A stretch of DNA of 64,000 bases from Akkermansia muciniphila. GTDB taxonomy: Bacteria > Verrucomicrobiota > Verrucomicrobiia > Verrucomicrobiales > Akkermansiaceae. Every line of letters begins with the position of its first letter. Position 1 is the stretch's first letter. Both the position numbers and the translations under genes were made by a program. The stretch lies in assembly GCF_018709685.1 (NCBI RefSeq), contig NZ_JABDHQ010000013.1, forward strand, positions 1 to 64,000. The letters are read 5' to 3'. The notes under the pieces were generated by a model. It was not told where the DNA came from. It did no database searches and saw nothing but the letters and a program-made list of their open reading frames with translations. This document shows positions 4,285 to 60,950 of this stretch, piece after piece.

Positions 4285-5832
4285 TCAGCCCGAAATGGCG
4301 GGAGTTCCCGCTATTTGAGGTTTTTCCACTGTCTTCCGGATGATAAGCGGCATGTATTCCCTGCGTACGTGGAGGGGTACGTAGAGCCCTTCCTTTTTGG
4401 CGCAAGAGAATAATACCTTGATGATGCCCAGGGAAATGATGTCCTGCGCAATGGTGACACTGTCCCCGAAGAGAAAGAAGAAGGTAAGCGGCTTGATGAT
4501 GTAGAGGGTTGAAACGTACAGGATTCCCAGCTTGTACTGGTGGTCGCGGTAGATTCTGCTGACAATCCATGCATAGGTCATGCCGATAACGGACAGGATG
4601 GTATATAAGGTCAGCCCCACGTAACCGAGCGTTTGAATGGTAGAGATGGGGCCGCTATGCCATATACCGTTCCAGGCAAAGGACGTCTGGTCCTGCGAGA
4701 GGTTGTAGGCCTCTTCATAAATGTTGGCTTTTACGATGCTGATATCCCGTGAGAATCCGTCTCCGAATACTTTGTCCTGGATGAAGTGTTCGCGATCGTC
4801 GAGCGCCCATTGCCACATTTCAAGACGCCAGTTCGTGGAACCCTCCGCATCCATCCGGGCATGTACGTTGACGTCCAGGAAAGGCAAGGCGGAGAGGGTG
4901 CGTTGAATGCCGAAAGGAAGGGAATGGAGAGCTCCTGCCGAGGACATAATCAGAAGAATGACCAGTCCAAAAATGGGGATCAGAATGCAGGATACCCATC
5001 TCCTGTAAATCAGGGAGACGAGGAAGAACAGGAGCAGCAACTGGGCCATCATGTTGCGGAAGCCGCTGAGCATGGCTCCGGCCAGCCCCAGCAGGAGGAG
5101 GCCCGCACGCCAGGGACGCTTGACCATCTGCCATATGGAGTAGTTGATGATGACTAGTTGGACCACCAGCTGGGAAATGAGAAGGAAGGTGCCCTGCCGG
5201 GTGTCTTCCTGGCCGGAACTGGCAGTGGCAGCGGCTACCGCCGGATCCGCCCCGGCGGCATCCGGGGAGAGAATATTCCGGGCCGTCGCGATCAGCGTAA
5301 AAAGAACCGTCAGGAGGACGGCCCATTGCAGCACCCTGCCGAATTCATGGCTGGTGGTCTTCAGGGAGGAAAGACAGAGGTAGGCGATCAGGGCCTGAAG
5401 GAACAGGATGTATCCCTTGCCTCCGTAATAGTCTTCCAGCACATTCAGCCCCAGCCCGAAGGGATGGCTCAGGAAGATATAGGCCACGTGCATGAAGATC
5501 ACAAGAATGACAGCATCCTGCAGAGCAATGGAATTCCATGTCAGGGATGAACGCTTGATCATAACATTCCACAGATAGAAGGGAATGGTGATGGTGTATA
5601 TAAAGAGAGGGGCGTAGTCCCCCATCTGCCCTACAGGCAGGAAAAGAATGGGCAGCCATATCCACAGGTACCACACTTTTTCCTTCATCAGGTACAGCCC
5701 GGCCAGGACGAAGGGGGAAACCGCCAGGGCAATGGAAAAGGGGTCTCCGTCAGCCGACATGACGCCGCCTATAATGGCAAGGAGAATGGCAACGACTGAA
5801 ATCAGTACAATTTTAAATAAATTACCATTCAT
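4285..5832 (-). CDS. O-antigen ligase/polymerase-like membrane protein
   Basis: A 515-residue inner-membrane protein with roughly a dozen hydrophobic helices and one large soluble loop. The loop holds WRLEMWQWALDDREHF followed by VFGDGFS, which resembles the R-x-x-x-W...GxGxG pattern of the Wzy_C/O-antigen ligase family that joins or polymerises surface glycans in the periplasm. Its neighbour kdsB makes a lipopolysaccharide precursor, which supports an envelope-glycan role. No glycosyltransferase cluster is present nearby. Which of the two activities it has (ligase or polymerase) cannot be told from sequence. Start at 5832 (MNGNLFKIVLIS), directly before the first helix. Confidence 0.65.
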   Translation of the reverse strand: MNGNLFKIVLISVVAILLAIIGGVMSADGDPFSIALAVSPFVLAGLYLMKEKVWYLWIWLPILFLPVGQMGDYAPLFIYTITIPFYLWNVMIKRSSLTWNSIALQDAVILVIFMHVAYIFLSHPFGLGLNVLEDYYGGKGYILFLQALIAYLCLSSLKTTSHEFGRVLQWAVLLTVLFTLIATARNILSPDAAGADPAVAAATASSGQEDTRQGTFLLISQLVVQLVIINYSIWQMVKRPWRAGLLLLGLAGAMLSGFRNMMAQLLLLFFLVSLIYRRWVSCILIPIFGLVILLIMSSAGALHSLPFGIQRTLSALPFLDVNVHARMDAEGSTNWRLEMWQWALDDREHFIQDKVFGDGFSRDISIVKANIYEEAYNLSQDQTSFAWNGIWHSGPISTIQTLGYVGLTLYTILSVIGMTYAWIVSRIYRDHQYKLGILYVSTLYIIKPLTFFFLFGDSVTIAQDIISLGIIKVLFSCAKKEGLYVPLHVRREYMPLIIRKTVEKPQIAGTPAISG

Positions 5833-5884
5833 AGGGCTGCCCGTGATTCCCGCATATGAAGCAATGGCGGGAAAAAGAGATGGA

Positions 5885-8347: not shown

Positions 8348-9442
8348 CTAGTTTCCGCCGCCGGAGTCTGCCAGACGGACGGATTCCGGAGGAAGGAAGT
8401 TGCGGAACCTCTTCTTTTCAATGCACTTCATGTAGGCCTCCTCCGGAGAGACGATGCCCTGCTGGAGTTTTTGCCAGATGGCGTCATCCATGAATTGCAT
8501 GCCCATGGATTTTCCGCCCACGATGACGTCCGGGATTTTCTGCGTGGCGCCTTCACGGATGATGCTCGCCACGGCGGGCGTGGCAAAGAGGATTTCATTG
8601 ACGGCTACGCGTCCCGGCTTGTCGCTGCGCTTCATCAGGAGCTGGGCCACCACGCCGCGGATGGAACCCGCAAGCATGGTGCGCACCTGGGATTGCTGGT
8701 CGGACGGGAAGACGTCAATAATACGGTCAATCGTCTTACTGGCGTTGTTGGTGTGCAGGGTGCCGAACACCAGAAGGCCGGTTTCCGCCGCCGTAAGGGC
8801 CAGGGAGATGGTTTCTAGGTCGCGCATTTCACCCACCAGCACAATGTCCGAGTCTTCACGGAGGGAAGCCCGCAGGCCGTCCGCGAAGGAGGGCGTCTGG
8901 AGGGGCACCTCCCTCTGGGTGACGATGGATTTTTTATTGGGGTGGACGAATTCGATAGGTTCTTCCACGGTGATGATGTGCCGTGACTGATTGCTGTTGA
9001 TGTAGTCAATGATGGCGGCCAGGGTAGTGGATTTACCGGAACCTGTGGGGCCCGTGACCAGCACCAGGCCGGACCTCATGTGGGCGAATTCCTTCACCAC
9101 GGTGGGCACGCCCAGTTCTTCCAGCGTGGCGATCTTGGTGGGAATGAGACGGAAAACGGCTCCCAGGCCGTGCTGCTGCCTGAAGTAGTTGCAACGGAAG
9201 CGGGAGGTTTCATCCATTTCATAGGCAAAGTCCAGGTCCCCTTCCTCCAGGTATTTCTGGAAGGCCTGGGGGTCACAGATTTCCGCGAGAAGGTTTTTGA
9301 ACGACTGGCCTTCCAGATTCTCGTCGGAAATGGCGGAGATAGTCCCGTTGACGCGGATTTTCGGAGGCTGGCCTTCGCTGAGGTGAAGGTCGGAGCCGCC
9401 GGCTTCTACGAGATATTTAAAGTATTGGTCGATAACAGCCAT
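8348..9442 (-). CDS. pilT: PilT-type twitching ATPase (second of a tandem pair)
   Basis: A 364-residue hexameric cytoplasmic ATPase of the type IV pilus retraction family. It carries the N-terminal PAS-like domain, the Walker A motif GPTGSGKSTT, the aspartate box DSDIVLVGEMRD with Walker B, and the histidine box GTLHTNNASKTIDR. It is preceded at 26 bp by a paralogous gene. Retraction ATPases disassemble pilin at the pilus base. No pilin, PilB or PilC gene lies in the window, so the machine it drives must be encoded elsewhere. PilT or PilU cannot be decided from sequence alone. Confidence 0.92.
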   Translation of the reverse strand: MAVIDQYFKYLVEAGGSDLHLSEGQPPKIRVNGTISAISDENLEGQSFKNLLAEICDPQAFQKYLEEGDLDFAYEMDETSRFRCNYFRQQHGLGAVFRLIPTKIATLEELGVPTVVKEFAHMRSGLVLVTGPTGSGKSTTLAAIIDYINSNQSRHIITVEEPIEFVHPNKKSIVTQREVPLQTPSFADGLRASLREDSDIVLVGEMRDLETISLALTAAETGLLVFGTLHTNNASKTIDRIIDVFPSDQQSQVRTMLAGSIRGVVAQLLMKRSDKPGRVAVNEILFATPAVASIIREGATQKIPDVIVGGKSMGMQFMDDAIWQKLQQGIVSPEEAYMKCIEKKRFRNFLPPESVRLADSGGGN

Positions 9443-9468: not shown

Positions 9469-10551
9469 TTACTTGATTCCCAGGAAGGATTTCATGATGG
9501 TCTTGTCTTCCGCGCGGAAGAGGCAGTCGTCCGTGGTGATGAGGCCCGCCTGGTGCAGGGCTCTCAGGGAGTCGTCCATCAGGATCATGCCCTGGGCCTT
9601 CCCGGTCTGGATGCAGCCGGGAATCATGAAGGTCTTGCCTTCGCGGATGCAGTTGGCGATGGCGGGCGTATTGACCAGCATTTCAATGGCCAGGGCGCGG
9701 CCGTTGCCGTCCGCCCTGGGAACCAGCTGCTGGGAGATGATGCCGCGCAGGGATTCACTGACCATGATGCGGATCTGGTCGCGCTGCTCCACCGGGAAGA
9801 CGTCCAGCACGCGGTCCACCGTGCGGGCTGCGGAACCCGTATGCAGGGTGCCGAGCACCAGGTGGCCCGTTTCTGCCGCCGTAAGGGCCAGGGAGATGGT
9901 TTCCAGGTCACGCATTTCACCCACCATGATGACGTCAGGGTCTTCACGGAGCGCGCCGCGGAGCGCGCGGGCGAAGGATTCCGTGTGCTTGTGCACTTCA
10001 CGCTGGTTGACGTGGCAGTTTTTGGACGGGATCAGGTATTCAATGGGGTCTTCAAGCGTGATGATGTGGTCGTGGCGGTCCTGGTTGATGAAGTCCACGA
10101 TGGAGGCCAGCGTAGTGGATTTACCGGAACCCACGGACCCTGTCACCAGAATGAGGCCGTTGGTGTAGCGGGTAAGGGGTATCACGTATTCCGTCGGCAG
10201 GCCGATTTCCTCCATGGTGCGCACCCGCGTGTTGATGATACGGAAGCAGATGTCATAACCCAGGCGCTGCTTGACTACGGAAGCGCGGTAGCGGCCGAAG
10301 TCGTTGGCGTAGGCAAAGTCCACGTCCCCCCTCTGCTGGAGGCGGTTCCATTCCGGGTCTTCCAGAAAGCCCCGCGCCAGAACTTCCGTGTCCTGGGGCG
10401 TGAGATTTGGCGCTTCCTCCCAGATGGGGAGAAGCTGGCCGAACCGGCGCCAGGTGGGGCGGCTGTTGACGGCAAGGTGGATATCGGAACAGTCAAAGTC
10501 CTGTCCAAGCTTAAGATATCCGTCGACGTGGGGCAAAATGTATTCGCTCAT
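9469..10551 (-). CDS. PilT/PilU-type ATPase (first of a tandem pair)
   Basis: A 360-residue paralogue of the downstream gene. The Walker A motif reads GSVGSGKSTT instead of GPTGSGKSTT, with all catalytic positions kept. The aspartate box is DPDVIMVGEMRD and the histidine box GTLHTGSAARTVDR. Tandem PilT-like ATPases are known in twitching bacteria, where PilU depends on PilT; the same division is plausible here. It appears to be the first gene of the operon pilT-like, pilT, parvulin, acyltransferase. The start at 10551 matches the family N terminus. Confidence 0.88.
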   Translation of the reverse strand: MSEYILPHVDGYLKLGQDFDCSDIHLAVNSRPTWRRFGQLLPIWEEAPNLTPQDTEVLARGFLEDPEWNRLQQRGDVDFAYANDFGRYRASVVKQRLGYDICFRIINTRVRTMEEIGLPTEYVIPLTRYTNGLILVTGSVGSGKSTTLASIVDFINQDRHDHIITLEDPIEYLIPSKNCHVNQREVHKHTESFARALRGALREDPDVIMVGEMRDLETISLALTAAETGHLVLGTLHTGSAARTVDRVLDVFPVEQRDQIRIMVSESLRGIISQQLVPRADGNGRALAIEMLVNTPAIANCIREGKTFMIPGCIQTGKAQGMILMDDSLRALHQAGLITTDDCLFRAEDKTIMKSFLGIK

Positions 10552-27086: not shown

Positions 27087-28656
27087 ATTCCAATCTGTGC
27101 ATCCCGTGTGGGATGCGACGCATGGGCGCGGTGATCCTCATCCGGGAGAACAGGTTTCAATCCACGCATCCCGTGTGGGATGCGACCCGGGAAAAATTCC
27201 CGCACATTTTCAATCTGTAAGTTTCAATCCACGCATCCCGTGTGGGATGCGACCATGGTTGTTTTCCGTGGCTGCGGAGCTTACAAGGTTTCAATCCACG
27301 CATCCCGTGTGGGATGCGACCTCCCACGGCGGGAGAAGCGGCAGGCGCCCAGGCGTTTCAATCCACGCATCCCGTGTGGGATGCGACCGTTCTAGGCCCC
27401 TTCTAGCGTGCCAAAAATCGGGTTTCAATCCACGCATCCCGTGTGGGATGCGACCGCCGCATTTTACCTTGTGTCTGAATGGGTTGCGTTTCAATCCACG
27501 CATCCCGTGTGGGATGCGACGTTAAAAATGCAAAGTGATGCACCTAAACGCATAGTTTCAATCCACGCATCCCGTGTGGGATGCGACCGAGATAACCACG
27601 TTCCTGCGGGGAGCGGTCCTCGTTTCAATCCACGCATCCCGTGTGGGATGCGACCTGTGCCGGGGATGCTGTAAATCCTGCGGATGGGTTTCAATCCACG
27701 CATCCCGTGTGGGATGCGACGCTATTCAAGTGCAGGAATTGCGCTCATTAGAAAGTTTCAATCCACGCATCCCGTGTGGGATGCGACATCAGCGCCATCG
27801 TGCCATCCGCCAGCACAAAGGTTTCAATCCACGCATCCCGTGTGGGATGCGACCGTGCATTAAGGTAGAGGCATTTGCCCCTACAGTGTTTCAATCCACG
27901 CATCCCGTGTGGGATGCGACTGACGGGGTAGACCGCCGTAATGGTGGACGTGGAGTTTCAATCCACGCATCCCGTGTGGGATGCGACCGTTCACGAGCCT
28001 GGCGCTGGCCAAGCTGGCGGCGTTTCAATCCACGCATCCCGTGTGGGATGCGACTCCAAAACGGGGTGGAAAGTTGGGCCATGCTCTGGTTTCAATCCAC
28101 GCATCCCGTGTGGGATGCGACTTTGAAACTAATCCAAAGCCAATGTACGACCGTGGTTTCAATCCACGCATCCCGTGTGGGATGCGACCAGGCGTACTTA
28201 AAAAGATCAGTATTGATCATATGTTTCAATCCACGCATCCCGTGTGGGATGCGACTCCCCGGCTAAAGCTCTTTTTTCAAACAACAACAGTTTCAATCCA
28301 CGCATCCCGTGTGGGATGCGACCCTCCGGGATGACCTCAACCACAGGGAATTTGATGTTTCAATCCACGCATCCCGTGTGGGATGCGACGAAGACGTTCA
28401 CGATTGACGCCCCCGGCGTGGCGGTTTCAATCCACGCATCCCGTGTGGGATGCGACCGGACCTGATGACGCGGCCGAGTGGTGGCAGGGGTTTCAATCCA
28501 CGCATCCCGTGTGGGATGCGACACAATCTTACATTGGTGCAAGAGACTCGCATGGAGTTTCAATCCACGCATCCCGTGTGGGATGCGACGGATAGGTCAT
28601 TTCAAAATCAGGGTAGAAAATTTGTTTCAATCCACGCATCCCGTGTGGGATGCGAC
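27087..28656 (-). CRISPR. CRISPR array, type I-C-like repeat, 24 repeats, no cas genes
   Basis: There are 23 identical 33-bp repeats plus one degenerate copy at 27087-27119, giving 23 spacers of 33 or 34 bp. Intact copies begin at 27154, 27221, 27288 and so on, the last at 28624. Read on the minus strand each repeat starts GTCGCATCCC, has the palindromic core GCATCCCgtgtGGGATGC on the complementary strand and ends GTGGATTGAAAC, the signature of type I-C repeats. The degenerate copy carries its changes at the GATTGAAAC end (5 of 33 positions), as expected for the leader-distal end. Transcription is therefore inferred to run right to left from a leader at about 28657-28965. No cas gene lies beside it. 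Confidence 0.97.
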
Positions 28657-32776: not shown

Positions 32777-32996
32777 TGTTTTGCAAGAGCCGGGAAACCG
32801 CGTTACGGCTGGACGGAAAGGAGGGGCCATGCTTCGCATTCCGCCCAACCGGGCACGTCCGGTTTCCCGGCCTTCATGCTTTGCCCACCCTTTAACCTGG
32901 AGTATCCTTCACCTTTGAACTTGTTCCGGGGCGGGAGGGGGACATTCTTTTACAAGGGCCGGATGCCCCGGTTTCCGGCAGTGCGGCCGTCAGGAG
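32777..32996. repeat. Mosaic intergenic repeat, copy A
   Basis: Three blocks shared with copies at about 42.3 and 60.8 kb. At 32789-32800 GCCGGGAAACCG starts a block matching the reverse complement of copy C (GCGTTACGGCTGGACGGAAAG). At 32830-32871 a block ending CGGTTTCCCGGC matches the reverse complement of copy B (ATGCTTCGCATTCCG). These two half-copies face each other, with 12-bp inverted arms. At 32947-32996 a third block runs from TACAAGGGCC to GTGCGGCCGT and matches B and C. No gene is seen between 32671 and 33093. Confidence 0.75.
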
Positions 32997-33025
32997 TTAC
33001 GATGGAAGTGCTGTTTTCCGGAATA

Positions 33026-33062
33026 AAAAGCCGGGCCCGGCGTGATACCGGACCCGGCTTTC
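33026..33062 (-). terminator. Terminator after the fucosidase gene
   Basis: AAAGCCGGG (33027-33035) pairs with CCCGGCTTT (33053-33061), with CCGG/CCGG inner pairs and one mismatch. On the minus strand it runs into TTTTTATT, 32 bp past the stop at 33094. Confidence 0.8.
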
Positions 33063-42228: not shown

Positions 42229-42269
42229 ACTGATTTTCCCTGCGCGCTGCGCCGGAGCAGGGTTCACAT

Positions 42270-42575
42270 GAAGGCCGGAGGCCTCCATTCCCAGGTGGCC
42301 GTCTTCCGTCCATGCCGTGGGCAATAGTTCTTCCCCGTATTCTTTGATGGCCGCGCTGCCGGAAACAAGGGCCTCCGGCCCTTGTAAGAATAATTCCTCC
42401 GTTTCTCTCCGGAACAGACCCCGCCATGAAGGCCGGGAAACCGGGCGTGCCCGGTGGGACGGAATGCGAAGCATGAAGCCCGCAGGGTGAGTGAATCGGA
42501 AAGATGAACGGCTCACCCCTTCATTCCCGGCTGACCGCCTTCCGTTCAAGCCTTGGGGAACAGCCCTTCGCCATG
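42270..42575. repeat. Mosaic intergenic repeat, copy B
   Basis: The 430-bp gap between 42229 and 42660 has no gene. It holds three blocks shared with copies A and C. The block at 42341-42390 runs from TTTGATGGCCGCGCTGCCGG to CCCTTGTAAGAA. The block at 42432-42490 runs from GCCGGGAAACCG through GGGACGGAATGCGAAGCATG to GCCCGCAGGGTGAGTGAATC. The last block at about 42520-42575 contains CTTCATTCCC and TTCCGTTCAAGCCTTGGGGA. The order differs from copy C. Confidence 0.75.
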
Positions 42576-42660
42576 CCTTTTTGACAGCCGTATCAATGGG
42601 AATTCCTCCCTGCCTCTCCCGGCTGAAATCATGCCGTGTCCGGGTCTGCCTCCCGGAACA

Positions 42661-60689: not shown

Positions 60690-60950
60690 GCTCCATGAAG
60701 GACGGGAAGGCTTCATTCCCCGCTGGATGTGTTCCATTCAAACCGTGGGAAAACAGTCCCTTCACTGTGTCCCTTGATGGCCGTGCTGCCGGGAGCGGGG
60801 GCTTCCCAGCCCTTGTAGAAACCCTCCGCAGGATAAGGGTTTGATTCATTCGCCTTTCAGGCTCATTCACCCTGCGGGCTCCAAGCCTCCCTTTCCGTCC
60901 AGCCGTAACGCGGTTTCCCGGTCCTTGCAGGAGAATTCCTTCTCTGCGCC
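60690..60950. repeat. Mosaic intergenic repeat, copy C
   Basis: The 576-bp gap between 60480 and 61055 has no gene. At 60690-60765 lies GAAGGCTTCATTCCCCGCTG through TTCCATTCAAACCGTGGGA; at 60772-60820 TTGATGGCCGTGCTGCCGGG through GCCCTTGTAGAA; at about 60865-60930 CCCTGCGGGCTCC through CCGTCCAGCCGTAACG and CGGTTTCCCGG. All three blocks occur in copy B in a different order and orientation. Parts also match copy A. Confidence 0.75.

Follow-up and report, generated by a model that had tools for sequence, protein, structure and literature searches.

REPs usually occur in more than 100 copies per genome (PMC2817692). The REPINs of Pseudomonas fluorescens SBW25 consist of two inverted REPs and a less conserved spacer, for which one-hairpin and clover forms have been discussed; they are intergenic and RAYT-linked, have singlets as decay products, and carry a GT(A/G)G-type head in hundreds of copies (PMC3116915). 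For E. coli, the parts of the reports considered here (PMC8266576, PMC6006769) describe BIMEs as mosaics of inverted REPs with tandem units and a REP-flanked Y1 gene for TnpA-REP (the REPtron); the REPs have a GTAG head and a stem bulge and number about six hundred, and inserts in the loop are not described in those parts. In Pseudomonas and Xanthomonas REPs (for example TGTGGGAGCGGGC..GCCCGCGAA), a head with G as its first base is followed by GA and the palindrome (PMC2817692). REP-like repeats without the GT(A/G)G head surround the Y1 gene in TnpA-Y1 subclass 2.6, which is reported mainly from Bacteroidetes, and in class 3 of Planctomycetes, Acidobacteria and Proteobacteria, with the foot CnGA (PMC6006769). 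GTAG repeats were reported in the Verrucomicrobia member O. terrae, with Akkermansia unmentioned (PMC3733652), and our survey of titles and term counts in the open-licence literature found no paper treating REP, RAYT, REPIN or MITE elements in Akkermansia.

In this study, we analysed a window of 64,000 nt (G000:C5:1-64000) from the 2.86 Mb, 48-contig genome of Akkermansia muciniphila, hereafter the source genome. Our results indicate that the repeats of this window very probably belong to a REPIN/BIME-type family that was mobilised by a RAYT and has become orphaned in the source genome. The family shares with the SBW25 REPINs the two inverted REPs, the less conserved spacer, the one-hairpin or clover fold, the intergenic location, the link to a RAYT and the singlets as decay products; it differs by its CTGG or CCGG heads, its approximately 25 sites, a source genome without RAYT and an 80-nt insert in the REP loops. 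With E. coli it has in common the inverted mosaics, the tandem units and the REP-flanked Y1 gene. The spacing of its CTGG-GA-palindrome is that of the Pseudomonas and Xanthomonas REPs, but the first base of the head is mostly C. Since the head is not GT(A/G)G, and headless and atypical subclasses are known (PMC6006769), we file the family as a variant and not as a canonical member; the RAYT of the relative G066, described below, resembles subclass 2.6 and class 3 in that REP-like repeats lacking this head lie around a Y1 gene, and may belong to one of them.

The original prediction was that three regions of the window, at 32.8, 42.4 and 60.8 kb, share blocks. This was confirmed, as all three have blocks in common at 73-95% identity in inverted orientation: 32828-32878 matched 42425-42475 (94%, 51 nt), 32782-32821 matched 60890-60929 (95%, 40 nt), 32937-32992 matched 42345-42400 (80%, 56 nt) and 42452-42524 matched 60833-60905 (73%, 73 nt). 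A blastn search of the source genome with window positions 42260-42580 returned 32 matches, which fall at about 22 loci; outside the query, the best E value was 1e-35. Covariance models for block A (R1) and block B (R2) gave 23 and 20 matches, respectively, at about 25 sites altogether, and G066 had 43 B matches. This is well over the handful that had been expected as a minimum, and below the usual level of REPs. At E <= 0.01, the two models found the family in 9 of 76 Akkermansia genomes (A in 9, B in 8). Most of the other Akkermansia genomes had zero matches and served as a natural control. All 25 source sites examined lie outside predicted genes, in agreement with the earlier claim, the intergenic calls resting on a home-made, simple codon-usage gene finder. 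A plasmid search gave no match to the family. Scanning the genome contigs for a REP-like pattern gave one convincing locus, in a rabbit Akkermansia MAG (L031); the remaining pattern matches looked like chance. One pattern match also came from IMG/VR.

Block B is about 105-120 nt long and carries a REP at either end, mutually inverted, with a variable core between them. The REP consists of a head, YYGG-GA, and a hairpin of about 9 bp with the loop TCCC. The left REP reads ATGAAGGCC-loop-GGCCTTCAT followed by TCCCAG, and the right REP reads GGGA followed by ACAAGGGCC-TCCC-GGCCCTTGT. The heads are mostly CTGG, CCGG or TTGG preceding GA, unlike the canonical GT(A/G)G. We had also considered GGGA, complementary to the TCCC loop, as the tag; this was dropped because CTGG-GA fits better, given the GA between head and palindrome in Pseudomonas (PMC2817692). 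The full B unit is a hairpin-forming element of roughly 110 letters, and its single strand is predicted to form either a single long hairpin or a separate hairpin at each end. In G066, the REPIN ends were conserved at 71-73% and the core at 60% (shuffled core, 55%). This contrast was gone in the source genome together with G044, partly because some copies have their right arm split by block A. Two inverted REP hairpins with a variable spacer were indicated by the alignments and folds as well as by the conservation of ends versus core. The ends, which the original prediction proposed to check for terminal inverted repeats, are REP hairpins in a doublet and not MITE-type repeats.

Two REPIN-like B units of the window are on the plus strand. 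The REPIN-like unit at 42268..42387 has no block A and shows a left REP (42268-42294), a core and a right REP (42359-42387), with the REP letters checked, an R2 match at 42282-42387 (99.9 bits) and a DNA fold z of -2.5. The unit at 60693..60818 has its left REP from about 60693 and an R2 match at 60710-60818 (105.7 bits).

Block A is about 80 nt long and opens with its own hairpin directly after GGGA. One subtype begins GGGA-AACCGGGC..GCCCGGTT, and the second has AACCGC..GCGGTT. The block occupies the loop of the left REP in forward orientation or that of the right REP in inverted orientation. At 42428..42527 (plus strand), it lies inside the left REP arm of a second, tandem unit (R1 match, 116 bits; 92% to the A consensus by blastn), whose block B follows at 42518..42631 (plus strand) with a decayed right side (R2, 40 bits; blastn 42525-42590). 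A block A of the right-arm type lies at 60830..60929 on the minus strand, inverted relative to the neighbouring B (R1 match at 60830-60926, 95.6 bits; also found by blastn). Block order and orientation appear shuffled because A sits in the loop of either of the inverted REPs flanking B; the order and orientation do change between copies, as had been noted, but they do not change freely.

The 32.8 kb region holds two facing block-A heads at 32780..32880 (95% to 60890-60929, 94% to 42425-42475; DNA fold z -3.4): a right-type head at 32782-32821 on the plus strand, and a left-type head with its REP arm at 32828-32878 on the minus strand. The perfect 12-bp arms that had been reported here were found again, with GCCGGGAAACCG at 32789-32800 and CGGTTTCCCGGC at 32860-32871. 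A decayed half block-B unit on the minus strand, comprising the arm of the right REP and some of the core, follows at 32950..33043 (R2 match 32950-33043; the B consensus matches 32950-33019 by blastn). The facing pair is absent from G043, which keeps a decayed counterpart of the half-B unit. We interpret the pair as deriving from an element that carried A in the loops of both REPs and would have lost its core, and G066:C7 (L213) likewise has two A matches facing one another.

Comparison with G044, which is the same species as the source genome and about 98% identical to it, showed how such arrangements arise. Among the G044 stretches compared, 24 of the 25 source sites have an element-bearing counterpart. 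At 42.4 kb, the tandem B plus A-B of the source genome is a single chimeric B in G044, and this difference is recombination between direct tandem copies. At L005, the two genomes differ by a 44-nt deletion between GCCTCCGCTCC repeats. At L003, they hold different element versions within flanks that are 95-98% identical. When L003 was set against L107, about 300 bp over the element and its edges were strongly divergent, as though this stretch had been exchanged. At the L018 site, the flanks are separated in G044 by about 7.4 kb of other DNA, and the models had no match to the element at this place. The mosaic is the outcome of A in the REP loop, tandem recombination and core deletion. The idea that the copies were repeatedly broken and reassembled is hence borne out directly at 42.4 kb, and the 32.8 kb remnant is consistent with it.

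Two relatives differ by the presence of A in one REP loop: G017 has ACAAGGGCC-GGGAGG-CCCTTGT, and G045 carries A in exactly that REP loop, with flanks about 90% identical. This observation, together with the hairpin start right after GGGA and the use of the equivalent loop of either arm, would also fit a block A that is itself a mobile element and inserts beside GGGA in the loops of REP hairpins, giving two nested systems. We consider this reading possible but doubtful, as no A copy was shown outside a REP, the solo A matches resemble degraded composites, and no transposase is known for A; A could also have reached both arms of the palindrome if one arm was copied onto the other. That A is a separate single-strand element parasitising REPINs, with one hairpin element carried inside the loop of a second, seems rather unlikely, and we found no counterpart of such an arrangement in the literature compared.

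Evidence for mobility of the family came from sites in relatives and from G066. The 42.4 kb site is near-empty in G017, G045 and G041, with 42-55 bp between the same genes, and in G043 a 93-bp remnant lies between them. The B unit beside the RAYT gene of G066 (G066:C20:38706) and a copy on a different contig (G066:C40:138856) show 100% identity across 105 nt. Of 24 G066 copies, 9 have a nearest neighbour with an identity of at least 0.90; in the source genome, G043, G017 and G045, no copy does. A scenario with no transposition, in which homologous recombination and gene conversion alone dispersed and shuffled an old repeat, would agree with the tandem-copy recombination at 42.4 kb and the deletion between short repeats at L005. 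We regard it as extremely unlikely, since the identical G066 copies, which lie on two contigs and have unrelated flanks, and the near-empty sites of the relatives require copying to new places. We saw no target-site duplication at the sites aligned or beside the two identical G066 copies, few sites having been compared and most being decayed. This may speak against classical MITEs, which derive by deletion from a DDE-type insertion sequence and have terminal inverted repeats as well as target-site duplications. The elements do resemble MITEs in being small, intergenic, palindromic-ended, non-coding and lineage-specific, but the gene found among the copies encodes a Y1 transposase (the transposase search covered Y1 only), and we consider a MITE origin highly improbable.

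That gene was found by a Y1_Tnp family search, which gave an extra ORF among the elements of G066 (L091:4863-5414, 183 aa). The protein matched PF01797 above the Pfam cut-off, and NF047646, REP-associated tyrosine transposase, with 7e-17, below the curated NCBIfam cut-off. A profile of this RAYT with its relatives had TnpA-REP (4er8) as its first match, with an E value of 5.8e-9. In L091, a B unit at 4707-4811 lies on one side of the gene, and B units at 5514-5618 and 5669-5773 and an A at 5764-5860 lie on the other. Such a REP-flanked RAYT was seen in the relative G066 only and not in the source genome, and a search of the 76 Akkermansia genomes with the protein gave zero matches outside G066. 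The view of the original prediction that these are small non-autonomous elements is upheld by the approximately 25 source sites, the empty sites in relatives and the Y1 transposase among the copies of one relative; the matching transposase that it pointed to exists in G066, but none was found in the source genome.

Matches to the G066 RAYT were found in 116 of the 388 Verrucomicrobiota genomes searched, and several of these related genes are flanked by, or contain, palindromic doublets or CTGGGA-hairpin repeats. The excess of tag-plus-hairpin around the RAYT relatives comes mostly from 3 of 10 loci, the strongest being G066 itself. In L160, L163 and L164, from other Verrucomicrobiota, CTGGGA-hairpin repeats lie inside the RAYT frame, which is kept open; repeats within RAYT frames have been described for subclass 2.4 (PMC6006769).

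In the source genome, G043, G017 and G045, the orthologue of this G066 locus has element fragments and no RAYT; G040 gave a weak match only. The simplest reading is that an ancestral RAYT was lost and the elements were left orphaned. As no second Akkermansia genome had the RAYT, a gain in G066 alone is possible. Another Y1_Tnp gene, L092:4682-5692 (G000:C34, ~144.7-145.7 kb; about 336-351 aa), is conserved in many Akkermansia genomes with or without elements. We rejected this gene (match in the source genome at G000:C34:144759-145049) as the mover, as it is also present in genomes of the clade that lack the elements, and its surroundings in G000, G043 and G044 are free of them.

Taken together, a RAYT probably once copied the family round Akkermansia genomes, its action on the elements being suggested by the position of the gene and by known relatives. 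The elements would be non-autonomous REP doublets moved in trans by the RAYT, a Y1/HUH single-strand transposase, which may act at the REP feet by cutting and rejoining the strand and so copy the unit to new intergenic places. The ~80-nt block A may have entered the left or right REP loop and then spread with the composite. In the source genome, the copies would now only diverge, delete and recombine, because the RAYT gene is absent, and this would leave the mosaic.

This finding extends REPIN/RAYT-type systems to Akkermansia, whose members are widely studied gut bacteria. A natural experiment is available as well: one species has the transposase and near-identical copies, its sister species have diverging copies only, and a single orthologous locus occurs both with the RAYT gene and lacking it. 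The fate of REPINs after RAYT loss can therefore be tested directly. The CTGG-GA head and the loop inserts probe how far the recognition of REPs can drift.

All three window sites lie between convergent genes, as do 8 of the 25 source sites, and of the four convergent gaps in the window that measure 80 bp or more, three hold elements, which is no more than suggestive of convergent gene pairs being preferred. Structured RNAs or bidirectional terminators selected at gene ends, their spread being secondary, would account for this location, and the hairpins of some copies do fold better than shuffles. Paired changes in block A exceeded those of shuffles, but they mostly separate the two subtypes and therefore represent few events, and paired covariation in block B was no greater than in shuffles; the conserved RNA fold that had been suggested for checking is only weakly supported. 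The elements had no match in Rfam, where only two tRNAs of the window reached the thresholds, the sites vary between species, and both orientations occur, so that we consider selection as RNA or terminator very unlikely. The fourth convergent gap of the window is occupied by a CRISPR array (27087-28656), in which 33-nt repeats (GTTTCAATCCACGCATCCCGTGTGGGATGCGAC) spaced at 67 nt form at least 19 pairs. Elsewhere in the window, 8751-9071 and 9839-10159, 1088 bp apart and within adjacent ORFs, are 75-80% identical over 230 and 76 nt, which resembles a gene duplication.
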